Shown piece after piece: positions 1,874 to 22,418 of a stretch of 64,000 nt of DNA. Source of the stretch: Methylosarcina fibrata AML-C10 (GTDB taxonomy: Bacteria; Pseudomonadota; Gammaproteobacteria; Methylococcales; Methylomonadaceae); assembly GCF_000372865.1 (NCBI RefSeq), contig NZ_KB889965.1:455902-519901 (forward strand). The letters run 5' to 3'. The notes beneath the pieces are model-generated. The model was not told the origin of the DNA. It did not search any database and was given only the letters and a program-made list of their open reading frames with translations. Numbering within the stretch: the first letter of the stretch is position 1; each line of letters begins with the position of its first letter. The position numbers and the translations under genes are program-made.

Positions 1874-2798
1874 ATGGCAAGACCCTTACGCATAGAACTC
1901 TCAGGTGGCCTTTATCATGTCACCTCACGCGGCGACAGGCGCGAGGCCATCTTTTTCTCCGATGACGATCGGTTAGGCTGGCTGGATTTGCTCGGACAGG
2001 TTTGTTCCCGCTTCAACTGGATTTGCCATGCCTATTGTCTGATGACCAATCATTACCACATCGTCATTGAAACGCCGGAAGGCAACCTGGCGCAGGGCAT
2101 GCGGCAACTGAACGGCGTCTATACGCAGATGACCAATCGCATGCATGGACGAGTCGGTCATGTGTTTCAGGGACGATACAAGGCAATAATGGTGGAAAAA
2201 GACAGTTATCTGCTGGAGTTGGCGCGCTATGTGGTGCTCAATCCGGTACGGGCCGGCATGGTCAACGATGTAGATGATTGGCCGTGGAGCAGTTATCCAG
2301 CAATGATCGGGTCACTGCCAACGCCGGACTGGTTACAGACTGATTGGCTATTAGGCCAGTTCGGCAGGCAGCGCAATCGTGCCCGGGCCGGCTATATCGA
2401 TTTTGTGCGTGCAGGTATTGACCTGCCCAGCCTCTGGGACAAACTGCAGGGCCAGATTTATCTCGGCGACCAGGCTTTTGTCGCCCGCATGCAGTCCGTG
2501 CTGGCAAAGGATGAGGCGCTACAGGAAATCCCCCGTGTGCAACGCCGGCCTGTTGCCAAGCCGCTGGCTGAATATCGATTCGAGTATGCGCATGCCCTTC
2601 ATGTTGGCATGGCACTGGCTTATCTTTCAGGTGATCATTCAATGAAGGCTATTGCCGAGGTATTCGGGGTGCATTATGCAACGGTCAGTCGGGCCGTCAA
2701 AGCATATGAACGGAATCACGGTAAATGATTGGCCTGCAGACATACTGAGCCAAGAGCTTCACACCAAAAAATGTTGGATTGCAAGACCTGACCCCGTT
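1824..2798. mobile_element. REP-associated transposase unit with 30-bp inverted repeats
   Basis: A Y1 transposase gene is bounded by perfect 30-bp inverted repeats: AACGGGGTCAGGTCTTGC... at 1824-1853 and its exact complement at 2769-2798, with a third copy at 3029-3058. The GACCTGACCCCGTTCTTG part is also repeated in tandem at about 2803-2820 and partly at 3061-3076. Such repeats around a RAYT gene are candidate REP-like substrates. Confidence 0.65.
1874..2728 (+). CDS. REP-associated tyrosine transposase (RAYT, Y1/HUH family)
   Basis: 284 residues. The HUH metal site is visible as NHYHIVIE near residue 58. The block containing the presumed nucleophile Tyr is visible as FQGRYKAIMVEKDSYLLELARYVVLNPVRAG in two overlapping parts (residues about 97-127), including the family hallmark LNPVRAG. 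The C-terminal 60 residues contain a helix-turn-helix (AIAEVFGVHYATVSRAVKAY), seen in the RAYT subgroup with an extra DNA-binding domain. It nicks and rejoins single-stranded DNA at REP-like hairpins. It appears full length. The last 55 codons are copied just downstream (2827-2987). Confidence 0.88.
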   Translation: MARPLRIELSGGLYHVTSRGDRREAIFFSDDDRLGWLDLLGQVCSRFNWICHAYCLMTNHYHIVIETPEGNLAQGMRQLNGVYTQMTNRMHGRVGHVFQGRYKAIMVEKDSYLLELARYVVLNPVRAGMVNDVDDWPWSSYPAMIGSLPTPDWLQTDWLLGQFGRQRNRARAGYIDFVRAGIDLPSLWDKLQGQIYLGDQAFVARMQSVLAKDEALQEIPRVQRRPVAKPLAEYRFEYAHALHVGMALAYLSGDHSMKAIAEVFGVHYATVSRAVKAYERNHGK

Positions 2799-2800
2799 CT
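2567..2800 (+). repeat. Direct repeat, copy 1 (transposase 3' end plus inverted repeat)
   Basis: A 234-bp segment covering the last codons of the transposase, its stop codon and the right 30-bp inverted repeat. It matches 2827-3060 with two differences by eye: the stop is TGA here and TAA there, and one C/T change follows. Confidence 0.9.
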
Positions 2801-2826
2801 TGAGACCTGACCCCGTTCTTGCTCTT

Positions 2827-3060
2827 GCTGAATATCGATTCGAGTATGCGCATGCCCTTCATGTTGGCATGGCACTGGCTTATCTTTCAGGTGATCATTC
2901 AATGAAGGCTATTGCCGAGGTATTCGGGGTGCATTATGCAACGGTCAGTCGGGCCGTCAAAGCATATGAACGGAATCACGGTAAATAATTGGCTTGCAGA
3001 CATACTGAGCCAAGAGCTTCACACCAAAAAATGTTGGATTGCAAGACCTGACCCCGTTCT
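2827..3060 (+). repeat. Direct repeat, copy 2 (offset 260 bp)
   Basis: Near-identical copy of 2567-2800. It carries a detached copy of the transposase C-terminal HTH region, which is open in frame from a TTG at 2779 to TAA at 2986-2988 and could in principle encode a 69-residue HTH peptide beginning in the inverted repeat. No ribosome binding site supports translation. It is probably a by-product of recombination between the GACCTGACCCCGTTCTTG repeats. Confidence 0.85.
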
Positions 3061-10277: not shown

Positions 10278-10824
10278 TTTAGATCGTCATGGCAGTATCG
10301 CCGTTGCCAAGACCGGGCAAACAGGCCGGTTGGAGCTAAAATTCATATGTTGACGGGAAAGAAGTAGGTGCAAGCTTTCCCCAGTCATAACGGCTTTAAA
10401 TCGTCTGCCTTTGTGCCCGAGGTCGCCGAATCCCGGCATTTCACAAGATTTTGCTGTCAGGGAAAGAAATCCGAAATCATGAAAATCCGGGCCCTGGCTG
10501 GCAGTTTCGAATACTCGACTGGATCGAACTTGATTCCGATAATTTCGGTCCGGCCGCTTGCCCGAATTGAAGATTCGAAAAAATCGATCAACTGTTTTCT
10601 ATTTGATTATGATGTGCCGTGTTAGCGCCATGGGAGGAAGCTAATGACGACGTCCGAATTCGGACTTTCATCTTCAATCAACTATAAACGCGAGCGCTTG
10701 CATCGTCATCATTATGGGCATAGACTTTTTTACTCAATGCGATTCCCACTCCGATAAAATGCGCGGTTCCTGACTGGTTTAAGGCAGAGATAAAAGGTCC
10801 CTAAACGATACCTGTAAGTTTTTG
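10278..10824. other. Intergenic region
   Basis: 547 bases between the PBP and the GGDEF/EAL gene. An 85-codon ORF at 10368-10625 has no usable start signal or protein-like composition. I see no clear terminator or RNA. Confidence 0.45.
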
Positions 10825-13182
10825 ATGGGAATAATCATAAAGATCATGCAATCGATACCCCGAACGCAATGGTTTCTATTAAACCATCCAAGGATTGGTC
10901 GTCGGGGACTCGGCGGGCATCTGGTCTCCGTTGTCGTCGTTGTACTTGCGTTCGCAGCAAGCGGGCCTGTTCAGGCAACTGACGACGATCAATTATTTAA
11001 TCGCCTCGCCGTCGATTCATTCCCCGTCATTCCATCGCATAACGGCATACTCATTGTGGGCAGTGAACAAGACTATCCGCCTTTCTCCACCGGCATGACC
11101 GATGAAACCGCCGGCGGGTTTACCGTTGACTTATGGAAATCCGTGGCGGCAGAAGTCGGCTTGAAATACTCGATTCACGTGCGTCCTTTCCGTCAAATAC
11201 TTAAGGAGTTCAAAGAGGGAAAGGTCGACGTGTTGATCAACCTTGCCCGTTCCAGGGAGCGCAGTCTCTTTGCCGATTTCACCGTACCTCACGTCATAGT
11301 GCACGGCGCCATCTTTGTTCGCAAGGGCGAAACGGGTATTCGTTCTGAGAAAGATTTTGCCGGAAAGTCCCTCATTGTGTTGAACGCCGACCTGGCGCAT
11401 GACTATGCTGTAAGCAAAGGTTGGGGAAAACAACTGATATTGGTGGATACCTCCGCAGAAGGGATGAATTTGCTGGCATCGGGCAAGCATGATGCCATGT
11501 TGCTGAGCAAACTGGCCGGACAGCAGACACTGCAAGCCTTGAAGCTGACCAACGTCGAACCGCTGAAGGTCAAAGCGGGGTTTTCACAGAAATTCGCCTT
11601 TGCCGTACCGAAAGGACAATCCGAGTTGTTGGCTTTGATCAACGAAGGACTGGCGCTGACCAAAGCTAACGGAAGATACAACGAACTGTACGATAAGTGG
11701 TTCGGCGTTTACGAGCACAAAGAAGACGGACTGAGCGATCTGCTGGGCTATCTTCTGCCTTTGACCGGTATGTTTCTGACCATTACCGGATATTTATATT
11801 ATCGGCGGCAACTTTTGTTCACCGACATTACTCAAATGAGAGAACATCAGGAACAGCTTGAACAATTCGCCCATTATGATGCCTTGACCGCTCTGCCCAA
11901 TCGCGTGCTGTTGGCCGACCGCCTACAGCAGGCCATGATTCGGAACATGCGTAACAATACGTCGCTGGCGGTGGTTTTTTTGGATCTGGACGGTTTTAAG
12001 CAGGTCAACGACAAGCACGGCCATAATCTGGGCGACCAACTGCTGGTTGCCCTCACGCATCGCATGAAGGACGCGCTGCGGGAAGGCGATACGCTGGCCC
12101 GCTTCGGCGGTGACGAATTCGTCGCGGTGTTGGTCGATTTGGAACGACCGCAGGATTGTCAACCGGTGCTGTCGCGTCTGCTGGAAGCAACGTCTGCCCC
12201 GGTAACAATTGACGATATGGTGCTGCAGGTTTCGGCCAGCCTGGGCGTCACCGTCTATCCCCAGGACAACGCGGATGCCGAGCAACTCATGCGCCATGCC
12301 GACCAGGCCATGTACCAGGCCAAACAAACCGGCAAGAATTGCTACCATTTGTTCGACGTCGATCACGATGTCGCGGTAAAGACACGGCATGAGAGTCTGG
12401 AACACATCCGCCACGCGCTTGAACGGAGCGAATTCGTGCTTTATTACCAACCCAAGGTGAACATGAGAACCGGCGAGGTGATCGGTGCCGAAGCTTTAGT
12501 TCGCTGGCAACATCCCGAGCGTGGCTTGCTGGCTCCTGCGGTCTTTCTGCCCATTATCGAGAATCACTCAATTATCGTGGAACTGGGTGAATGGGTGATT
12601 GATTCGGCACTGGCTCAGATAGCAGAATGGAATATCGCGGGGCTGGACGTTGAGGTCAGCGTCAACATTGGCGCTCGTCAGTTGTTGTACGGCAATTTCG
12701 AGTCCCGCCTTGCCGAGCTACTGGCCGGACATCCGGGTGTTCGGCCGAAAAATCTGGTATTGGAAATTCTGGAAACCAGCGCGTTGCAGGATATTACCCA
12801 GGTATCCAGATTCATGCACGCTTGCCGGGACATGGGCATATGTTTTGCCCTGGATGATTTCGGCACCGGTTATTCTTCGTTGACTTATCTCAAGCACCTG
12901 CCTGCCGACATAGTCAAAATCGATCAAAGCTTCGTACGGGACATGATCGATTACCCCGACGATCGAACCATCGTCCAGGGTGTAATAGAACTGGCCAAGG
13001 CATTCCGTCGGTCCGTGATCGCCGAAGGCGTGGAAACGATCATGCACGGAGAGGTATTGCTGTCTCTGGGATGCGACCAGGCGCAAGGCTACGCTATCGC
13101 TCATCCGATGCCGGCGGCGGAAATCCCCGGATGGATAGCCAGTTGGCGCCCCGATGCAGCCTGGACGGCTAATGCCGCTTAG
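10825..13182 (+). CDS. Periplasmic solute-binding sensor, diguanylate cyclase/phosphodiesterase
   Basis: About 785 residues. Order: membrane/signal segment (about 30-52), an extracytoplasmic SBP_bac_3 domain (about 70-300; IVGSEQDYPPFS, GGFTVDLWKSVA, NGRYNELYDKWF), a transmembrane helix (about 308-326), GGDEF (GGDEF intact at 428-432, with the product-inhibition RxxD as REGD ten residues before) and EAL (EAL intact near 556, plus DDFGTGYSS, KIDQSF and EGVET). The domains for making and breaking c-di-GMP both look intact, with activity probably set by a periplasmic ligand such as an amino acid. The start is uncertain: TTG 10822, ATG 10825 or ATG 10846. Convergent with a second such sensor. Confidence 0.9.
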   Translation: MGIIIKIMQSIPRTQWFLLNHPRIGRRGLGGHLVSVVVVVLAFAASGPVQATDDDQLFNRLAVDSFPVIPSHNGILIVGSEQDYPPFSTGMTDETAGGFTVDLWKSVAAEVGLKYSIHVRPFRQILKEFKEGKVDVLINLARSRERSLFADFTVPHVIVHGAIFVRKGETGIRSEKDFAGKSLIVLNADLAHDYAVSKGWGKQLILVDTSAEGMNLLASGKHDAMLLSKLAGQQTLQALKLTNVEPLKVKAGFSQKFAFAVPKGQSELLALINEGLALTKANGRYNELYDKWFGVYEHKEDGLSDLLGYLLPLTGMFLTITGYLYYRRQLLFTDITQMREHQEQLEQFAHYDALTALPNRVLLADRLQQAMIRNMRNNTSLAVVFLDLDGFKQVNDKHGHNLGDQLLVALTHRMKDALREGDTLARFGGDEFVAVLVDLERPQDCQPVLSRLLEATSAPVTIDDMVLQVSASLGVTVYPQDNADAEQLMRHADQAMYQAKQTGKNCYHLFDVDHDVAVKTRHESLEHIRHALERSEFVLYYQPKVNMRTGEVIGAEALVRWQHPERGLLAPAVFLPIIENHSIIVELGEWVIDSALAQIAEWNIAGLDVEVSVNIGARQLLYGNFESRLAELLAGHPGVRPKNLVLEILETSALQDITQVSRFMHACRDMGICFALDDFGTGYSSLTYLKHLPADIVKIDQSFVRDMIDYPDDRTIVQGVIELAKAFRRSVIAEGVETIMHGEVLLSLGCDQAQGYAIAHPMPAAEIPGWIASWRPDAAWTANAA

Positions 13183-13338: not shown

Positions 13339-15330
13339 CTATCGGGCGCCGCTCGGCACGAACGAAAATCCCAAGCTTTTCTTCTTGGCATGATACATTG
13401 CCGAATCGGCTCTTTTGATGAGGGCTTCGCAGTTCTTGCCGTCATCGGGATAAACGGCGATGCCGATGCTGACGCCCAGATTGATCAGTTGTTCACCCAA
13501 TATGAAAGTATCCCTGAGCGTATTGATGATCTTCTTGGCGACCAGCACGGAGGCCTCCTTGTTGGTTTCGGGCAGTAACAGGGCAAACTCGTCGCCGCCG
13601 AAACGCGCCGCGACGTCGGAGTCCCTAAGCGCCGTCAGCAGCCTTCTTGACGCTTCCTTAAGAATCTCGTCCCCCGCCGTGTGACCCATCGTGTCGTTGA
13701 TGCTTTTGAACCGGTCCAGATCGAGAAAAAGCAGGGCAAAGGAGAGGTTTTTCCGCAAGGTGAGATTAATCGATTGTTGCAGGCGATCCATGAACAGCCG
13801 CCGATTGGCCAGCCCGGTCAGTTCGTCGTAATAGGACAACCAGATCAAATGATCGGCCGCTTCCTTGCGGGCCGTGATTTCATGCATGACGCCGTCCACG
13901 CCAATGCACATGCCGTAATCGTCGTAAATCGGTGAATCGTTTACCTCCAGCCAGTGGACGCGCCGTTGGGAATCATATACTTCTATTTGATAGGGTGGAT
14001 TCGGAATGCCCTGGGTGCAATCTTCCATATATTCGTTGACCTTGAGATTGGCCGGATCGTCGGTCAGATAGTCCCGGTAATGGAGCATGAACTCTTCCGG
14101 AGTGTAGCCGAGGATGTGGGTAACCGACGGACTGACATAAGTAAATGCGCCTTCGCAATCGTATTTATAGAAAAAATATTCGCTGCTCTGGCTCTCGATC
14201 AGGCTGCGGAACGTATTCTCGTTGGAAGTCAATTCGGCGCTGCGGCTCAATATCAGACGCTCAAGATCGCTTTGCAACTGCTTGACGATCAGATTGGCGT
14301 TTTCAGCTTCGACGTTCGCCAGTTGAATTTTCTTGTTTTGCTGCCGGACCTTGATCAGTAATAACAATAAAATCAGCAGGAAAATCTGGGAAGAATTGGG
14401 AGAATACCAGGAGACGTCATTATCCGCCGCAGGTTTTACCGGTTCCAGGATCGGCTTGGGCGGCGGTACGGGCTCCGGTTGTTTGGCCGGCGTCACCCAC
14501 TTGGCATAAATGGCGTTCATTTGTTTCTCACTGATCGAATCCAGTCCTTTCTGCAGAATGGTCGCCAGGATGGGCCAGTCTTTGCGGACCGCGATGCTTT
14601 CGTCGGTGCTGTTTCGATCGTAAAAATCGGCCAGTTTGACGTTATCGACCTGATATTTTTCCTGTAGATAATTGGCCGTGGCCATAAACACGATGGCGGC
14701 ATCGATTTTTTGTTGATCGACCAATTTGATCCCTTCCAACATGGTGTCGACAAAATAAGGCTTGATCGACGGAAATTCCTTGATCACTTCATAGCCGTAT
14801 TGATAACCCTTTCTTAAGGCGACTTTTTTACCGGCCAGGTCGGAGCGGTCGTTTACCGAAGGTTTGTTTTTATTGGTGACGATGACCAGGGATTTTTTGA
14901 TGTACGGTTTGGTAAAGTCGAACCAGAAACTGCGTTCCGGCCGGTTGACCATGGTGGCGACCACGTCGATTTTCTGTTTTGCCGCCGCTTTGTAGAGCGC
15001 GTTCCAGTTGGTGCTCGGATGGGGTTGAAATTGAATGCCGAGATTTTTGCCGACGGCGGCAAGAATATCGACGGCGATGCCTTCAAATTGGCCCATATCG
15101 TTGACAAAACTGTACGGCGGCAACGAACTGTCGAAAGCAATCCGGATGGTTTTATGGGCGGCCAGCCAGGATTTTTCCCTGGCAGTCAACTTGATACCTT
15201 GCGTCGTTTTTTCCTGAGGGACATGGACGTTCCTCGCTTCAGCATGGGTCACACTGGATAAGCCAATTGAAAAAAACAACGTAATCAAATGGATCGTTAA
15301 TTTGCCGCGGGAAAAATAATGCGACTTCAT
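13339..15330 (-). CDS. Solute-binding sensor, PAS, diguanylate cyclase
   Basis: About 663 residues. Signal peptide/TM near the N-terminus, an SBP_bac_3 domain (IRIAFDSSLPPYSF, EGIAVDILAAVG, MNAIYAKWV), a Pro-rich linker (PEPVPPPKPILEP), a Leu-rich transmembrane helix (SQIFLLILLLLLIKV), a coiled coil, a PAS domain (FTYVSPSVTHILGYTPEEF) and a C-terminal GGDEF domain with intact GGDEF near residue 580 and RxxD (RDSD). Likely a c-di-GMP synthase controlled from the periplasm. ATGs at 15387 and 15342 are alternative starts; none has a good ribosome binding site. It ends 157 bases from the end of the convergent GGDEF/EAL gene. Confidence 0.9.
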   Translation of the reverse strand: MKSHYFSRGKLTIHLITLFFSIGLSSVTHAEARNVHVPQEKTTQGIKLTAREKSWLAAHKTIRIAFDSSLPPYSFVNDMGQFEGIAVDILAAVGKNLGIQFQPHPSTNWNALYKAAAKQKIDVVATMVNRPERSFWFDFTKPYIKKSLVIVTNKNKPSVNDRSDLAGKKVALRKGYQYGYEVIKEFPSIKPYFVDTMLEGIKLVDQQKIDAAIVFMATANYLQEKYQVDNVKLADFYDRNSTDESIAVRKDWPILATILQKGLDSISEKQMNAIYAKWVTPAKQPEPVPPPKPILEPVKPAADNDVSWYSPNSSQIFLLILLLLLIKVRQQNKKIQLANVEAENANLIVKQLQSDLERLILSRSAELTSNENTFRSLIESQSSEYFFYKYDCEGAFTYVSPSVTHILGYTPEEFMLHYRDYLTDDPANLKVNEYMEDCTQGIPNPPYQIEVYDSQRRVHWLEVNDSPIYDDYGMCIGVDGVMHEITARKEAADHLIWLSYYDELTGLANRRLFMDRLQQSINLTLRKNLSFALLFLDLDRFKSINDTMGHTAGDEILKEASRRLLTALRDSDVAARFGGDEFALLLPETNKEASVLVAKKIINTLRDTFILGEQLINLGVSIGIAVYPDDGKNCEALIKRADSAMYHAKKKSLGFSFVPSGAR

Positions 15331-15494
15331 TTTGACATTCATTCTGAATAGGAGATTAATTGAAACCCTTATGGGAACATTCAACATTTTTATTCGGGTT
15401 TACTATCTAATTATGGTTCATGTCGCAACGGAGTAAAGATTTTATTTTCCTGATTTTTTTATAATTCGGGCTGCATTTTGTTGGTGACGCAAAG

Positions 15495-16556
15495 TTAGCG
15501 GCTGGAAGATAATTGTGAATGCCGGAATAGCCGCAATTGGTTCAAAGCCATCCGCCGGAAAGACGCATTGTTTAATTTTACCCAAAGATTCATGACAAAA
15601 TAACCATAGGGAAGCCTGGGACCCTGGTTCGAATAGGCGATTTCATGGAAATGCCGGTTTTCATTTTCATGATGGCCGATGTGGTTCGACAAGCCGATGA
15701 GGGCGTAGCGGGTCATCCACGAATCGGTGACCCAGCCGAAGCTATGGCCGAACCGGCCTTCGTTCAGGCCCCAATGCTGGAAATAATTGACGGCTTCCAG
15801 GATGCGGACCGCCGCCAGGGCCTGGTAAAGAAACATCAGGACGGGAAGCCAGCCCAGAAGCGTCAGAATCAGCGCGATCAGAAGCAGTTCAATCGCCACG
15901 CCTTGCAATACCCGGTTCCGGAGCAATTTGAGCGGGCCGGTCAAGGCTTCGGCGGCCAGCCGGCTTCGTTCCGATTGCCAGGCAAAACGGAAATAGCCGA
16001 AATAAACCCTGCGCCAATAATCGTTGAAACTTTCGCCGAGCCGCGCGGTAGCGATATCGTCCGACATGCCCAGGCTCGGATGATGGCCCTGCTTGTGCGT
16101 GATAAAGAAATGATCGTAACAGACCGTGCATAACAATAAGCGTCCCAATTGCTGCATGACCCAGGCGGAACGATGAATCAATTCATGGGCGACCACGATG
16201 CCCGACGTGCCCGAACTGGTCCCCACCATGAATCTGAGAATGATTAAATTGATCAAGCCGGTTCCGATATCGTGAACAGAATGCCACGGCAATTTGCCGA
16301 CATAGTCGAGCATGAGCCAAATGTTGGCAAGTTGCAATAGGCACAGGCCGTAAAGAATGCCGTCATAAAACAGGGACGAACGCGCCGCTTTCGCCGGATG
16401 GACGGCTTTGGGCCCGCGCCAGTCCAGCAGCAGTACGATCCAGAAAGGTATCGTCCAGGCCAGGGCGCCGGGTATGTCGTGCGGGCCGTTCGCCAAAAAA
16501 AGACAGGTGCTGACCGGCAATATAAGGCAAAGCAAATGGCTCAAAGAGTGCAACAT
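15495..16556 (-). CDS. AlkB-like membrane non-haem diiron monooxygenase
   Basis: 353 residues with at least five hydrophobic helices. The histidine clusters of alkane hydroxylases are present: HELIHR (124-129), HKQGHH (154-159) followed by the AlkB-style ARLGESF (171-177), NYFQHWG (257-263; AlkB has NYxxHYG) and NHIGHH (291-296). The N-terminus is shorter than classical AlkB (about 400) and the last cluster differs (ExxNRHFHE instead of RRYQ), so the substrate is probably not a simple alkane. It acts in the inner membrane and needs a reduced rubredoxin-like donor; a rubredoxin lies at 60914-61084. It is 41 bases downstream of the diiron oxidase gene, the last gene of a probable three-gene operon. 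Confidence 0.82.
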   Translation of the reverse strand: MLHSLSHLLCLILPVSTCLFLANGPHDIPGALAWTIPFWIVLLLDWRGPKAVHPAKAARSSLFYDGILYGLCLLQLANIWLMLDYVGKLPWHSVHDIGTGLINLIILRFMVGTSSGTSGIVVAHELIHRSAWVMQQLGRLLLCTVCYDHFFITHKQGHHPSLGMSDDIATARLGESFNDYWRRVYFGYFRFAWQSERSRLAAEALTGPLKLLRNRVLQGVAIELLLIALILTLLGWLPVLMFLYQALAAVRILEAVNYFQHWGLNEGRFGHSFGWVTDSWMTRYALIGLSNHIGHHENENRHFHEIAYSNQGPRLPYGYFVMNLWVKLNNASFRRMALNQLRLFRHSQLSSSR

Positions 16557-16597
16557 CCTGATTTTATTTTTCTAATGAGGATGACAAGGCGCTGTTT

Positions 16598-18745
16598 TCA
16601 TGTTCTGAATCGTTTTAATAAATAGCACCAGACCAGTGCAAATTTAAACCCTCTGCAGACAGATTGCAATGAACAATAGCCCGTGTAGATTCTCCGCCAG
16701 TGGTAATCGGCTGCTTCCATCCCCGACACGGCGATGACGTCGTCCAGGTAAAGCTGAATCGCTTCTTTTGCCAGAAAGGCGTGGCCCGACGCAACGTTGT
16801 CGATCGACGTGTGGACGTCGACGATGGCGGGATTGAGGCCCCAATAAGCCAGTTCTTCGGACAGACGCAAATAAACGTTGCCCAGACCGCTCAATTCGAT
16901 CGCCATGTTCAAGCCCAGCAGCTCGGGCAAAAACGTGCAGGGAAATCTGGCGATCGCCAGGAGATACACCGGCAGATCGAAGGCGCTGTCGATAAATCCC
17001 GGATAATCGACAAATTCCCGGCTGGCGATCGGCGGCAGGTCAAGGCCGACGCTATTCAGCAATTGCCGATAGATGAAAGGATGGTTTTGTTCGAGCTTGC
17101 CGTTGCCGGCTTCGTCTTCATAAATTTTGCACAGCAAGGCGGCCAGGGCCGGGTTCGAGCCGAATTGGAGCCGGCTTACCGATTGAAGCCAGCAGCCGTC
17201 GGCCAGAATCGCCGGAGCGAACTGTTCGATGCCCCACAAATAAGCTTCCCTGGACAATTTGGGAGTCGAGCCGAGCGGCCGGTAGCGTTCGGTCTCCTGT
17301 CGGTAAAGGGTATCGATCAGCTCGTCCAAGGCCTGATGCGTATAAGATTTAAACGGCACTCGGCTGAACCGGTCAGCAGAGCGCAGCACTTTTCGAACTT
17401 TGCTACGGGCTGTGGCCGCCACCTCGGGGTACAGTTCGTCGTTGACCAGATGGTAATACAGTTCCCGATTGCCGAGTTTCGAAAAATCGATCACCGGGCC
17501 GGTGGGTTCCGCCGAGGCCAGAATTTCCGGCTCTGCCCGCCCGGAAGCAGGGCAGGCCGGTGGAATTTCGGCTTTTTCCGAAATCAGCCAGTTTTCTAGA
17601 ATTTTTCTTTCATCCTGAGTCAGGACGCCGAACATCCGCCCATTGAAATCGAACAGTTTCAGCAAGGGGCTTGCCGAAGGGTTTGCCTTGTCAATGTAAG
17701 GCGACTTCGTCAATTCGGACAAAAAGCCGACGGCATCGAACGGCGATTCGGCGAACCAGTCGTTCAAAGATCGCCCTCCCACTTTAACCCGGCCATGATG
17801 GCCGGCCGCCGCGGCCGCTTTCTTTTCGAGCAGCATTGCCCATTGCCGGCCGAACGAGGGCGGATTCAACGCCTGTTGCAGCAGGTGCTGCCGGCAGCGT
17901 TCGGCTTGCACCCGGTACAGGCGGAAGCCCGAGCGGATCCGGTGCCATAAATCGGCGCCCTGATCGTTGAACGCATGCACATAGCCGCCGATAATTTGGT
18001 TGAGATCGGGAATGACCGAATGCTTTCGGCTTCGGCGAATTTCCAGGAAACGGTCCAGGTTTGGGTTGCCGTTTTCCGGTCGAAAATTTTCCAGAAGATC
18101 GGGAGATCGGCAATAAGCCAGGGTGAAACCGAGGATTTCCGGAAAAAACACGCGCGGGAAACAGGCCAGAGCCCGTTGCAGGCAGGCCAGCTCGAACAGG
18201 CAGCCGCCGATGGCTTCCTGCTGTGCGAAGGCCCGGCTGGTTAATGGGAGCAATGCCTGCCCCGTTGCCAGCAAAAGGCCAAGGAATAAATTTTTACCGG
18301 TTTCCGGGCGGGCCAATTTCAAATGGACGGCCATCAGATCGACGGTCAGAGGATTCTGGCTGGTGGCGGCCTGAGAGATCGAATGCAGCCAGCCCGGCTC
18401 GGTTAAAACGACCGGCGACAGTTGCAGGATACAGTTGTTGAATGCTTCCTCGGTCAACGGCGGAACTTTCGCCGGCCGGGGCAGGGCGGCGGATTCGGTT
18501 AAAACCGCATCGGGGCAGCCTGAATCGGAGATCGGGCCGGTTTCCTCAGCGCCGGCGGCCGCCAGATGCTGCCGAATAAAGTCGTAAACGGCCGGATAAA
18601 CGGCCTCATGCTCGCTGACGTGCATCAGCGTATGAAAAAGTTCCCTACCGTCCAGCAGCCGGTATGGCTCCGCGGCGCGGTAAGCGTCTCGGGAAAAAAC
18701 CGGCCGCAGGGACGGCGCGAAAGGATGAGGCTGCTCAGTCGTCAC
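16598..18745 (-). CDS. Two-domain haem-oxygenase-like diiron oxidase (iron-containing redox enzyme family)
   Basis: 715 residues built from an internal duplication. RELF..LMHVSEHEAVYPAV (35-53) corresponds to RELYYHLVNDELYPEV (427-442), and PGWLHSIS (117-124) to GCWLQSVS (517-524). The C-terminal copy keeps the expected metal ligands: YEDEAGNG...NHPFIYR (E543/E545, H555), LPELLGLNMAIE (E608/E617) and HTSIDNVASGH (H645, D649, H655). The N-terminal copy lacks the first set and has only remnants (PEILGF, HAFNDQ). Homologs of this superfamily perform oxygen-dependent C-C cleavage, N-oxidation or decarboxylation. GTG start, overlapping the carbamoyltransferase stop by 11 bp, so translation is coupled. 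Substrate unknown. Confidence 0.78.
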   Translation of the reverse strand: MTTEQPHPFAPSLRPVFSRDAYRAAEPYRLLDGRELFHTLMHVSEHEAVYPAVYDFIRQHLAAAGAEETGPISDSGCPDAVLTESAALPRPAKVPPLTEEAFNNCILQLSPVVLTEPGWLHSISQAATSQNPLTVDLMAVHLKLARPETGKNLFLGLLLATGQALLPLTSRAFAQQEAIGGCLFELACLQRALACFPRVFFPEILGFTLAYCRSPDLLENFRPENGNPNLDRFLEIRRSRKHSVIPDLNQIIGGYVHAFNDQGADLWHRIRSGFRLYRVQAERCRQHLLQQALNPPSFGRQWAMLLEKKAAAAAGHHGRVKVGGRSLNDWFAESPFDAVGFLSELTKSPYIDKANPSASPLLKLFDFNGRMFGVLTQDERKILENWLISEKAEIPPACPASGRAEPEILASAEPTGPVIDFSKLGNRELYYHLVNDELYPEVAATARSKVRKVLRSADRFSRVPFKSYTHQALDELIDTLYRQETERYRPLGSTPKLSREAYLWGIEQFAPAILADGCWLQSVSRLQFGSNPALAALLCKIYEDEAGNGKLEQNHPFIYRQLLNSVGLDLPPIASREFVDYPGFIDSAFDLPVYLLAIARFPCTFLPELLGLNMAIELSGLGNVYLRLSEELAYWGLNPAIVDVHTSIDNVASGHAFLAKEAIQLYLDDVIAVSGMEAADYHWRRIYTGYCSLQSVCRGFKFALVWCYLLKRFRT

Positions 18746-20477
18746 GCACTTTGCCGATCAGATAATCGTTAATCACCAGCGCATCGAGCCCGGTGGTCAA
18801 AAACACCGCCAGCGCATCTTCCAGGGTATGCACCAGCGGTTTGCCCATTACATTAAAACTGGTATTCAATAATACAGGGACATCGGTCAAGCGGTGAAAA
18901 TGTTTCAATAAACGGTAAAACCGGGGATTCCATTCTTCCTTTACCGTTTGCAGGCGGCCGGTGCCGTCGACGTGGCATACCGCGGCGATCCGCTCCCGCA
19001 TTTCCGGGCGGATTTTCAACGTTTTGTCCATATAGGGCGATTCCTGGTAATTTTCGAAATACCGGGAGCCGAACTCATGCAGAATGGAGGGAGCGAAAGG
19101 GCGAAAAGTTTCCCTGAATTTGATTTGTTCGTTGATCAGATCCTGAGTCTCGGCCGATCTTGGATCGGCCAGAATCGATCGATTGCCGAGCGCACGAGGG
19201 CCGAATTCGGCCCGGCCCTGGATCCAGCCGACCAGTTTGCCGCGGGCCAGAAGGCTCGCCGTGCGTTCGCAAATGCTGTCGGGCAGGTGCTCGACGGGCA
19301 GGGAGCGGTTGAATTTGACCAGTCTGGCGATCGATTCTTCGTCGATAGCGCTGCCGGTGTAAGGCGTCAGGAGTTTGGGCCGGTGGCTGCGCTCCGGATG
19401 TCCGGCATGATACGACAGCCAGGCCGCGCCCAGCGCACAACCGTCGTCCGCCGGGGCGGAAGGGACGTGCAGCCGACGGAACGGCGTCAGCCGGGTAATA
19501 TTGCCGTTATGCGAGGAATTGAGCGCGCAGCCGCCGGCCAGAGCGAGATTTTCGCTGCCGGTGACTTCATGCAGATGGCACAACAGCCTCGATACCGTTT
19601 CCGCGAAAAAATACTGGCCGGTGTAGGCGATATCGGCGGTTCGCTCGATCGGGTCTTGCCGGTCGCGCCGATACCGGTCCAGTCGATCGAACAACCGCGA
19701 AGAGACGTATCGGCAATCGAAGCCCCGGACCGATACCGTAGCGCGGAGCAGGTCGTAGAATTCCGGATTCAATTGACCGTAGGGAGCCAGCCCCATCACT
19801 TTCCATTCTTCGCCTTTGAGCCAGTCGAAGCCGCACAGCTCGGTGATCTTCATATAATACAGGCCCAGACTGGCGGTTCCTGGACCCTTGGCCTCGTACA
19901 GGCGTTCCAGACGCCGGTTTTTATAGCGGTAGAAAGCCATGGCGCCCCGTTCGCCCCAGGAATCGATCACGGCGCAGGCGGCCTCCTCGAACGGGCTGCC
20001 GTAACAGGCGGTGGCGGCATGAGTCAGATGATGATCGTAGTCGGCGAACGTAATTCGGCAATCCGGGTATTTTTCCCGAATCGTGCGCGCCAGATTGAGT
20101 CCGGCACCGGCGATACTGTTCCTTTGGCAGGCCATCATGTGATGGATCTGGTAATTGGGCAAAGGCGAACGCAGCCTTTTGATGCCGTCTTTGAGTAAAC
20201 CCGGCGCGGACAGGAAACTCAGCCCGGACATGGCCGATTCGTAAAAAGGGCGTTTTTTTCGCCAATTGATTGCAATGACGAATTCGCCCGCATCCGGACA
20301 AAACCGGGCCAGCAATTCCGGCACGCGAAACAACTGGTCGGGTTCGCAATTCAACGCCCGTTTGTTCTGCAAATAACGTTCGGTCGCTTCGGCAAACAAG
20401 ACTTCGCCCTGATCGTCGATCACGGCCAACGCAGAGTCGTGATAGGTGACCGACAGGCCTATATGGTATTTTCTCAT
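18735..20477 (-). CDS. NodU/CmcH/TobZ-type carbamoyltransferase
   Basis: 580 residues. The Kae1-like fold is indicated by GLSVTYHDSALAVIDD at the N-terminus, the metal-binding segment DYDHHLTHAATACYGSPF, the phosphate-binding SWGERGA, LAGGCALNSSHNG, and the family signature EFGPRALGNRSILADPR in the C-terminal domain, with LNTSFNVMGKPLVHT near the end. It transfers a carbamoyl group from carbamoyl phosphate, via carbamoyl-adenylate, to a hydroxyl of a small molecule. The ATG at 20477 matches the family N-terminus; the upstream extension to 20579 is rejected. First gene of an operon with the diiron oxidase and the AlkB-like gene. The acceptor is unknown. Confidence 0.9.
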   Translation of the reverse strand: MRKYHIGLSVTYHDSALAVIDDQGEVLFAEATERYLQNKRALNCEPDQLFRVPELLARFCPDAGEFVIAINWRKKRPFYESAMSGLSFLSAPGLLKDGIKRLRSPLPNYQIHHMMACQRNSIAGAGLNLARTIREKYPDCRITFADYDHHLTHAATACYGSPFEEAACAVIDSWGERGAMAFYRYKNRRLERLYEAKGPGTASLGLYYMKITELCGFDWLKGEEWKVMGLAPYGQLNPEFYDLLRATVSVRGFDCRYVSSRLFDRLDRYRRDRQDPIERTADIAYTGQYFFAETVSRLLCHLHEVTGSENLALAGGCALNSSHNGNITRLTPFRRLHVPSAPADDGCALGAAWLSYHAGHPERSHRPKLLTPYTGSAIDEESIARLVKFNRSLPVEHLPDSICERTASLLARGKLVGWIQGRAEFGPRALGNRSILADPRSAETQDLINEQIKFRETFRPFAPSILHEFGSRYFENYQESPYMDKTLKIRPEMRERIAAVCHVDGTGRLQTVKEEWNPRFYRLLKHFHRLTDVPVLLNTSFNVMGKPLVHTLEDALAVFLTTGLDALVINDYLIGKVRDD

Positions 20478-20805: not shown

Positions 20806-20898
20806 ATGCAATGGTTCGTTTTTTTAAAGACAGTTTTTTACGTGGCATGGTCTTTTTTGGTCATCAGCTTCATCATTCTGAGCAAAAAATACCGCTGA
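20806..20898 (+). CDS. 30-residue single-pass membrane protein
   Basis: Starts at an ATG seven bases after a perfect AAGGAG (20793-20798) and ends with TGA before a strong terminator. The peptide is Met-Gln-Trp, then a 20-residue hydrophobic helix rich in Phe/Val/Trp (KTVFYVAWSFLVISFIIL), then a basic tail SKKYR. This is the layout of small accessory subunits of membrane enzymes, but it does not match CydX, KdpF or CcoQ by eye. An in-frame ATG at 20758 would give 46 residues, but the ribosome binding site favours 20806. Neighbours are the carbamoyltransferase operon and a flavin oxidase. Confidence 0.65.
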   Translation: MQWFVFLKTVFYVAWSFLVISFIILSKKYR

Positions 20899-21050: not shown

Positions 21051-22418
21051 TTAGCCAGCGGTCATTTTCTCAACCGCTTCCCGGGCCGTGCGCAGGGCGC
21101 CTTCGATGAAGCCCTGGTAATCCGAAAAGGCTTCGCCGCAGATATGAACGTTGCGGGGGCCGTGCCGCTCCAGCGCGAACGCGGCGACTTTTTCCTGAAT
21201 GTCCCAGGACCGGATTCCCGGTTTCCAGAGATGGCAGGCCGCTCCGTAAGGTTCGATGCCCCAGTGGCGAATGCCGTAATTGAGAATGCGTTTCGGATCG
21301 ATGTTCATGAAATGAGCGAATGCTTGCGGCAGATGTTTGTCCCCGTCGATCTCGGCCCGCGTCTCATAGCCTTTGCGCAGATATTGAGTCCAGAAATTCA
21401 TATAAGGCCGGTCGGCGTACACCATGATCAGACCCTTGCCGTCCGCTTTCTGATAATGCAGCTCCCGCGCCGGTAATTGCGCCAAATCCTGATGAGGAAT
21501 ATTTTCTTCCCACCACGGGTCCTGGACGACGAAAAAACATTTCAGCAAGGGGATGTCCAGAACCGAACCGAAGAGCGCCCGGATCGTCATCGGCAATCCG
21601 GCGATGCGGGACAGGCTGTGTTCCGGCAGCGCCAAAACCACGTGTTTGGCCATGCAGGGCGGTTTTTCCGAAAAATGCAGCCGAATCCGCTCCCGGTCGT
21701 GGCTTTCGATCGAAACCAGCATGTGCGCGCGGTGAAGATCGGCGCCCTGCTGCCGAATTCGCGCCAGCATCGCGTCGGTCAAGGCGTTCATGCCGTGGCG
21801 TATCGCTCTGAGGTGCGGACTCATCTGCAGCATCTTGACCCAGGTGATCAGCCAGGCGGCGGCGCTGGGGTTTTCATGGATGAAATGAAAAAAGCTCCCG
21901 TCTGCGATAATAAAGCGCAAGGCATGAGGGCTGATGACCCTGCCGAGCACGTTCCATAGACCTTGTTCCCAGAGCGGGCGTCCGAGAAAGACGCCTTCAC
22001 GGCGGATCGCTTCGAGATCGTCTTCGCTAAGCGCCATCAGCTCCGTTTCCGATTTGTCCAGAACCCGCTGTATTGCCAGTTTGTACAAGCCGAGGCTGGA
22101 TAGACCGCGTTCGGCATCTTCCACGGGATGGCGGCTGTGAAACTGCTGAGCCGGCGGACTCAGATATTCGGGAAAAGGTTGCGTTTCAACTCCCAGTTCT
22201 CGGATCAATTGCCCGAGCCGGACTTGCCGGACGGGATCGAAACGCATGGCGCCGTATTCGGCGTCGAAGCCGTGCATGGCGACGGTTTCCAGTTTGCCTC
22301 CGAAGCGATGGCTGCCTTCGAACAGGGCCACTTTCCACTCGGGCGGCGCATGCATCGCACAGTACAACCCTGCGACGCCGCCTCCCACGACCGCCAAATC
22401 GTATTCCGCTGCTTTCAT
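21051..22418 (-). CDS. Flavin amine oxidase-like FAD oxidoreductase
   Basis: 455 residues. The N-terminal Rossmann motif DLAVVGGGVAGLYCA (residues 6-20) is followed by the acidic ribose-binding segment VALFEGSHRFGGKLET. The C-terminus has the typical FAD-binding VHICGEAFSDYQGFIEGAL. Length and ends match the PF01593 amine oxidase/protoporphyrinogen-oxidase-like family; there is no signal peptide in the chosen form. The ATG at 22418 has GGGAG six bases upstream; the frame extends to 22673, but that part looks non-coding. It converges with the small membrane protein gene. The substrate is unknown; it may belong to the same pathway as the neighbouring carbamoyltransferase operon. Confidence 0.82.
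   Translation of the reverse strand: MKAAEYDLAVVGGGVAGLYCAMHAPPEWKVALFEGSHRFGGKLETVAMHGFDAEYGAMRFDPVRQVRLGQLIRELGVETQPFPEYLSPPAQQFHSRHPVEDAERGLSSLGLYKLAIQRVLDKSETELMALSEDDLEAIRREGVFLGRPLWEQGLWNVLGRVISPHALRFIIADGSFFHFIHENPSAAAWLITWVKMLQMSPHLRAIRHGMNALTDAMLARIRQQGADLHRAHMLVSIESHDRERIRLHFSEKPPCMAKHVVLALPEHSLSRIAGLPMTIRALFGSVLDIPLLKCFFVVQDPWWEENIPHQDLAQLPARELHYQKADGKGLIMVYADRPYMNFWTQYLRKGYETRAEIDGDKHLPQAFAHFMNIDPKRILNYGIRHWGIEPYGAACHLWKPGIRSWDIQEKVAAFALERHGPRNVHICGEAFSDYQGFIEGALRTAREAVEKMTAG

Follow-up and report, generated by a model that had tools for sequence, protein, structure and literature searches.

The window analyzed here is a stretch of 64,000 nucleotides from Methylosarcina fibrata AML-C10 (contig NZ_KB889965.1). 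It contains three consecutive genes that code for a NodU/TobZ-type O-carbamoyltransferase (CT), a two-domain haem-oxygenase-like protein (HDO) and an AlkB-like integral-membrane non-haem diiron hydroxylase (ALK; Table 1). An earlier note on this DNA had described these open reading frames (ORFs), the 11-bp overlap between the first two genes and the gap of 41 nucleotides that separates the HDO stop codon from ALK. All of these features were recovered exactly, and Pfam and PDB sequence searches assigned the proteins to the three families that had been named. The overlap is likely to couple translation of CT and HDO. The RNA fold of the HDO–ALK gap is unremarkable (z 0.13). Promoter- and terminator-like sites between positions 15300 and 22600 are no commoner than in shuffled sequence, so that the operon structure rests on spacing and conservation. 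The source genome (two contigs, 4.98 Mb) contains one pmoA/amoA-type gene, and a family search of this genome found no second CT.

Table 1. Features at and beside the three-gene locus (window coordinates)
Feature	Position	Strand	Basis and remarks
CT, NodU/TobZ-type O-carbamoyltransferase, 580 aa	18735..20477	-	ATG start; PF16861 7.3e-72, PF02543 7.9e-31
HDO, two-domain haem-oxygenase-like protein, 715 aa	16598..18745	-	GTG start inside CT gene; PF14518
ALK, AlkB-like integral-membrane non-haem diiron hydroxylase, 353 aa	15495..16556	-	ATG start; PF00487 3e-20
CT/HDO gene overlap, 11 bp	18735..18745	-	sequence
Flavin (FAD-dependent) oxidase	21051-22418	-	8zb2 'FAD-binding protein' 7e-84, distantly VioA-like
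30-residue membrane ORF	20806-20898

The closest solved relatives of CT in the PDB sequence search are 9s2t (decarbamoylnovobiocin carbamoyltransferase), 7xb6, GdmN and TobZ. CT contains both the N-terminal (PF02543) and the C-terminal (PF16861) domain of the NodU/TobZ family above cut-off and aligns with 9s2t. The HxxxH motif, an Asp residue and the EFGPRALGNRS motif are invariant in 16 of 16 orthologues. In family, domain content and active-site regions CT is similar to NovN, GdmN and TobZ, but it differs from them in its partners, which are HDO and AlkB-like enzymes. Family membership predicts with high confidence that CT catalyzes an O-carbamoylation.

ALK is most closely related to the alkane monooxygenases 8f6t and 8sbb (4.5e-31 and 9.8e-22). 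Its predicted model (pLDDT 94.6) aligns with these two FtAlkB structures with Z scores of 37.0 and 33.9 at 28 and 24% identity (rmsd 2.6 and 336 aligned for the former). Ten histidines and E254 are invariant in 45 of 45 sequences. ALK therefore shares the whole predicted fold and the full histidine set with AlkB-type alkane 1-monooxygenases. In contrast to these enzymes, ALK adjoins a carbamoyltransferase, and no rubredoxin is kept beside it. It has the sequence NYFQHWG where alkane hydroxylases have the NYxEHYG motif. The reaction type predicted from the family, again with high confidence, is a hydroxylation.

The Pfam profile PF14518 ('iron-containing redox enzyme', 1.2e-13) covers only residues 507–686 of HDO. 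An AlphaFold model built from 60 sequences (pLDDT 92.4, pTM 0.91) shows two haem-oxygenase-like domains, and hhalign detects homology between them (E 1e-38 over 251 columns). The folds nearest to the C-terminal domain (residues 418–712) are those of RohS (Z 22.4), HrmI (22.0) and SznF (21.5), followed by FlcD (17.6); BesC (Z 13.9) and UndA (Z 13.7) are more distant. The N-terminal domain (residues 72–297) aligns with UndA/TenA/PolF-type folds with Z scores of about 12–13. Matches of HDO to designed PPR proteins (phmmer) and weak profile matches to DMSP lyase were taken as noise.

Six candidate metal ligands are found in the C-terminal half. H555, E608, H645, D649 and H655 occur in 60 of 60 sequences and E545 in 59. 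Together with the predicted helical fold, this carboxylate/histidine set places the C-terminal domain in the HDO superfamily. For SznF, the ligand pairs E215/H225 and H311/D315 and the single H318 are described (PMC11705231), and the spacings E545-x9-H555 and H645-x3-D649 of HDO equal those of the two pairs. RohS contains a similar motif stretch, matched with a weak E of 0.063. The two ligand motifs occur together in 59 of 60 C-terminal halves and in none of the 60 N-terminal halves, although the latter keep E203, the counterpart of E608, and H317 in 58 of 60 sequences. Judged from these sequences, the N-terminal domain is a pseudo-domain, a copy without ligands. Of the tandem diiron oxidase proposed earlier, the two domains thus stand, by fold and by sequence profile, whereas the ligand motifs are kept in one of them. 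Compared to RohS, HrmI, FlcD and the central domain of SznF, the C-terminal domain of HDO is only 12–18% identical and has its last histidine displaced; HDO contains the additional pseudo-domain and no cupin domain.

Conservation and distribution of the triad

We searched 201 genomes of the order Methylococcales for the three proteins. HDO was matched in 78 genomes and CT, counting its paralogues, in 118; the 93 genomes with a match to ALK include some with more distant AlkB relatives. A triad was called when the three genes lie on one contig with CT at most 1.5 kb from HDO and ALK at most 6 kb away. By this definition 64 of the 78 HDO-bearing genomes, from six families, contain a triad. HDO and CT lie on the same strand in all 71 genomes that have both on one contig. 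ALK is co-directional in 25 triads, all from the family of the window, and divergent in the 39 triads of the five other families; in one of the latter (G011) four other ORFs separate ALK from CT. The remaining 14 genomes comprise three with HDO and ALK only (L168, L169 and L170, from G119, G160 and G139), where CT stands on another contig behind a radical-SAM gene, seven with CT and HDO only, and four with HDO alone. In the group of seven, ALK was located on another contig in five and found nowhere in two. In the group of four, ALK is present on another contig in three, and CT as well in two of those.

A second set of 80 named loci, drawn from 148 relatives, gave a similar picture: within the stretch covered, 57 contain all three genes, eight CT and HDO, six HDO and ALK, and nine HDO alone. 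Seventy of these loci come from methanotroph taxa. The other ten belong to six unclassified Gammaproteobacteria, 'Chromatiales bacterium USCg_Taylor', Leucothrix, a planctomycete and a Micromonosporaceae metagenome-assembled genome; the last three contain HDO alone. Triad bearers include many uncultured methanotrophs and, among named strains, Methylococcus capsulatus Texas (L130), Methylocaldum sp. 14B (L134), Methylomicrobium sp. RS1 (L079) and Methyloglobulus morosus KoM1 (L078).

The earlier note had stated that linkage confined to close relatives would speak against a common pathway. Linkage was instead found in six families and in two arrangements, as would be expected of a single pathway more than of an operon that is merely frozen in place. 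That the three genes are neighbours without a common function, kept together by vertical descent, would fit their uniform orientation wherever they occur together in the family of the window. We consider this explanation barely credible, since ALK stays beside CT and HDO even though its orientation flips between families and the other flanking genes change. We tentatively take the three genes to be one biosynthetic module that is widespread among methanotrophs of this order.

Outside the order, CT and HDO recur without ALK. Of 369 sampled genomes of the class, nine match the HDO profile, six of them strongly, and five of these six carry particulate methane or ammonia monooxygenase (pMMO/AMO), G265 being without. 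In the family f36 both genomes contain pMMO and HDO; CT adjoins HDO in one of them and ALK in neither. In a sample of 349 genomes of the phylum, the profile gave 18, mostly weak, matches. ALK was sought in 14 genomes or loci outside the order and matched in three, all from the genus of G759; none of the matches falls inside the gvg-type loci discussed below. The idea that the triad is part of a gene set of all pMMO/AMO organisms was rejected, because six of the 11 AMO-positive genomes of the class sample contain no HDO, as do all except two of the 81 genomes of the G521 family. The absence from these six genomes also means that methane or ammonia can be oxidized without the product. The two members of the G521 family with a two-domain HDO are represented by loci L161 (G521:C1) and L189 (G644:C86). 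G521, perhaps an ammonia oxidizer, has three AMO copies, and its CT gene lies about 4.3 kb upstream of HDO on the same strand.

The gvg clusters as precedent for CT and HDO

Side-by-side CT and HDO genes have a precedent. The gvg cluster of Pseudomonas fluorescens WH6 is responsible for production of 4-formylaminooxyvinylglycine (FVG), a non-proteinogenic amino acid with an aminooxy bond (PMC8067088). Table 1 of the same report lists gvgA as a lipase/esterase, gvgC as 'Heme-oxygenase 2' and gvgF as a NodU-family carbamoyltransferase, and both gvgC and gvgF are described there as required in this strain. The core of gvg-like clusters consists of gvgA, B, C and F (PMC8064604). No methanotroph appears among the genera listed in the text section on such clusters in this second source, a statement that does not extend to its S4 Table.

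Several gvg-like loci emerged from our searches. A tblastn search of plasmids returned an Agrobacterium vitis plasmid cluster with genes for HDO, LysE, a carbamoyltransferase and an SGNH hydrolase; its HDO and CT are 30 and 34% identical to those of the window, and its gene content fits the gvg-like core given in PMC8064604. Among 179 genomes of one large genus, HDO was matched in 119, mostly by shorter and weak hits. Eight genomes contain a strong two-domain HDO, and in all eight BLAST placed CT and a GvgA-like gene nearby. In locus L207 the order is GDSL lipase, HDO, a gene of deiminase/amidinotransferase fold, LysE, CT, class III aminotransferase, formyltransferase and two further LysE genes. 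This is the gene order published for gvg (PMC8067088); gvgB, gvgG and gvgR are not among the genes recognized in L207. HDO and CT of L207 are 28 and 34% identical to their counterparts in the window; an upstream ORF of 501 residues in this locus has no Pfam match. A variant of such loci (L187, L188, L204, L206), in which HDO and CT stand beside a TauD-type dioxygenase, an ATP-grasp amino-acid-ligase-like protein and one further gene, spans two distant proteobacterial lineages.

The triad shares with gvg the adjacent pair of a GvgC-type two-domain PF14518 protein and a NodU-family carbamoyltransferase. The C-terminal motifs of HDO are also alike in the window and L207 (DE.GNG...NHP, PE.LG.N.A.E.SG.G and H..IDN...GH). 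The two systems differ in that the triad has an AlkB-like third gene, that its CT is not of the GvgF clade, as far as a quick tree can tell, and that its conserved neighbourhood lacks gvgA (GDSL lipase), gvgH, gvgI, LysE, aminotransferase, formyltransferase and the small ORFs. In the HDO tree, gvg-type proteins and the HDO of G521 are split from the methanotroph proteins with support of 100/100. The pairing of CT with HDO may, on these sequences, have arisen more than once, which suggests a connection between the two reactions.

This precedent bears on two alternative explanations. First, the triad could make a soluble amino-acid-type product, an oxyvinylglycine- or aminooxy-like small molecule, and the substrate of ALK would be a small derivative of an amino acid. 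CT and HDO belong to the core of gvg-like clusters, whose known product, FVG, is itself a non-proteinogenic amino acid (PMC8064604, PMC8067088), and the modelled C-terminal fold of HDO is nearest to N-oxygenases. We nevertheless regard a soluble product as unlikely: a search beside the triad found no conserved GDSL protein, LysE, aminotransferase or small ORF, the AlkB-type ALK is an integral-membrane protein, and CT falls outside the GvgF clade. Second, HDO could be regulatory or structural, as suggested for GvgC, leaving CT and ALK alone to produce a hydroxylated O-carbamoyl lipid without N-oxygenation. The wide transcriptome changes reported for gvgC mutants (PMC8067088) and the ligand-free N-terminal half of HDO would agree with such a role. 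The six candidate ligands are, on the other hand, kept in 59–60 of 60 sequences that are only 27–53% identical to that of the window. Such conservation is hardly expected of a non-catalytic protein and makes a purely regulatory HDO highly improbable.

Proposed pathway and competing readings

The fold of its C-terminal domain and the analogy with gvg point, with moderate confidence, to N-oxygenation rather than C-oxidation as the reaction of HDO. Taking the three predicted activities together, we tentatively favour, at somewhat less than an even chance, the reading that the product of the triad is a carbamoylated and N-oxygenated metabolite, probably one associated with membranes. Our guess at substrate and order of steps is the following. 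ALK, with electrons from an unlinked donor, would hydroxylate an unactivated C–H bond of a lipid-like or lipid-anchored substrate. CT would then carbamoylate a hydroxyl, possibly that introduced by ALK, with carbamoyl phosphate as the donor. The TobZ route runs through a carbamoyl-adenylate, and we assume the same for this step. Finally, HDO, with one O2-activating diiron site in the C-terminal domain and the ligand-free N-terminal domain as a scaffold, would oxygenate a nitrogen. This could be the carbamate NH2, which would yield an N-hydroxycarbamate or, if a rearrangement follows, an aminooxy group like that of FVG; it could also be an amine of the scaffold of the substrate. The linear sequence would be C–H to C–OH (ALK), to O-carbamate (CT), to N–OH or N–O–C (HDO). 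A lipidic or membrane-bound substrate is favoured because ALK is an integral-membrane AlkB-type protein and because a CDP-alcohol phosphatidyltransferase gene is an occasional neighbour. This gene occurs in seven of 40 loci that were compared all against all with flanks of some 7–9 kb at most (one representative scanned).

Several observations weigh against this proposal. The E-values that Foldseek gives for HDO are weak, 1.0e-3 at best. The position of the sixth ligand differs: H655 follows D649 at a distance of six residues, whereas in SznF H318 follows D315 at a distance of three (PMC11705231). The role of GvgC in FVG formation is described as unproven, and a regulatory function has been suggested (PMC8067088). 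In the CT tree, which was made by a quick method with SH-aLRT support only and gave long-branch warnings, GvgF-type proteins cluster with paralogues of CT found in other genomes of the order, apart from the triad CT. The likeness to FVG biosynthesis is therefore more an analogy of enzyme types than orthology. HDOs from Sinorhizobium and Streptomyces, in whose clusters no CT is listed, join the methanotroph side of the HDO tree by a long branch, and relatives of HDO without a listed CT sit in clusters for nonribosomal peptide synthetase/acyl carrier protein or acyl-CoA dehydrogenase (the PLSDB gene table being incomplete). Genes for a redox partner, a transporter or construction of the scaffold are not conserved next to the triad in the 40 loci. 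The six AMO-positive genomes without HDO belong on this side as well.

Hopanoids offer a more specific lipid substrate. ALK could hydroxylate the side chain of a bacteriohopanepolyol (BHP; C-30/C-31, aminotetrol or aminopentol), CT could carbamoylate it, and HDO could act on the C-35 amine. Carbamoyl-BHPs occur in some Alphaproteobacteria, and the genes for BHpentol and BHhexol are called unknown in one report (PMC12583986); methylcarbamate- and ethylcarbamate-aminoBHPs have been described in Methylobacter–Methylotenera enrichments (PMC11844350). A DUF4070 B12-radical-SAM gene, present in ten of the 40 loci and directly upstream of CT in eight (one representative scanned), and the phosphatidyltransferase gene flank some copies of the triad. 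The radical-SAM protein is rejected as a hopanoid methylase, since its scores fall well short of the cut-offs for HpnR and HpnJ. Furthermore, pMMO is present in five of five tested HDO-negative genomes of the family of the window, and hopanoids such as aminopentol are widely reported in type I methanotrophs. The carbamates of methanotrophs are N-methyl- and N-ethylcarbamates, not O-carbamoyl esters. We therefore find a role in hopanoid tailoring decidedly improbable.

Returning to the carbamoylated, N-oxygenated metabolite, its boldest version is a new class of methanotroph membrane lipid, in which ALK would hydroxylate an alkyl or terpenoid chain, CT would O-carbamoylate it, and HDO would N-oxygenate the carbamate to a lipid N-hydroxycarbamate or aminooxy lipid. 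This is very unlikely in its particulars. If true, the N-hydroxycarbamate would be a hydroxamate-like metal ligand, and a function in copper or iron handling at pMMO-rich membranes would be possible.

The earlier note had envisaged a dedicated pathway of oxidation and O-carbamoylation and knew of no described pathway with these enzymes. Linkage and protein families support the first idea in part; it missed the CT–HDO precedent in gvg and the pointer to N-oxygenation from the fold of HDO. As to the second, our literature searches found no paper describing the three-enzyme set in methanotrophs, whereas the CT–HDO pair was already known as gvgF and gvgC (PMC8067088, PMC8064604). One account of expressed genes includes an ornithine carbamoyltransferase and a haem oxygenase, with nothing on the triad in that part of the source (PMC11072679). 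The metabolite of triad bearers is thus probably an undescribed one. What is new is a gvg-like CT–HDO pair, otherwise known from antimetabolite clusters, that is joined to an AlkB-like hydroxylase and widespread in one order of methanotrophs. Identifying its product would yield a methanotroph marker molecule or ligand, and a second system of this kind could help to settle the role of GvgC and GvgF in N–O bond formation.

Neighbouring genes and minor features

The flavin oxidase and the 30-residue membrane protein to which the earlier note had drawn attention do lie beside the operon in the window. Neither is part of it: the oxidase has no homologue in the loci of 40 relatives, with flanks of at most some 7–9 kb, and all matches of the small ORF in loci L032–L151 have an E of 0.98 or worse. 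No further gene is common to most of the 40 loci; other ORFs that recur in at least 15 of them lie inside CT in other frames. Among small ORFs of 18–80 residues near the triad, seven clusters from at least three loci each were found, and, judged by eye from their position, these look like frame shadows of the radical-SAM and CDP-transferase genes.

A CT paralogue at L227:6224-9781 (G009:C24), 49% identical to the CT of the window, follows a DUF4070 B12-binding radical-SAM gene, and neither HDO nor ALK was seen beside it. This radical-SAM protein is 27% identical to the one that precedes CT in eight triad loci. The radical-SAM–CT pair may represent another module. In L168, L169 and L170, CT is flanked by the radical-SAM gene on its upstream side and by a gene of about 175 codons on the other, and HDO and ALK are preceded by a gene for 486–525 residues (one scanned, no Pfam match).

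Beyond ALK, the window contains two tail-to-tail genes for signalling proteins (10822-13182, plus strand; 13339-15387, minus strand), each with a periplasmic-type solute-binding domain. One combines GGDEF and EAL domains and the other PAS and GGDEF; the PAS–GGDEF gene follows ALK on the same strand. Farther away, at 2567-3060, lies a 260-bp tandem duplication (1.9 copies, 99% matches) with two 19-bp AGACCTGACCCCGTTCTTG repeats, which by its look appears to be recent and to have occurred at an element of the REP/transposase type.

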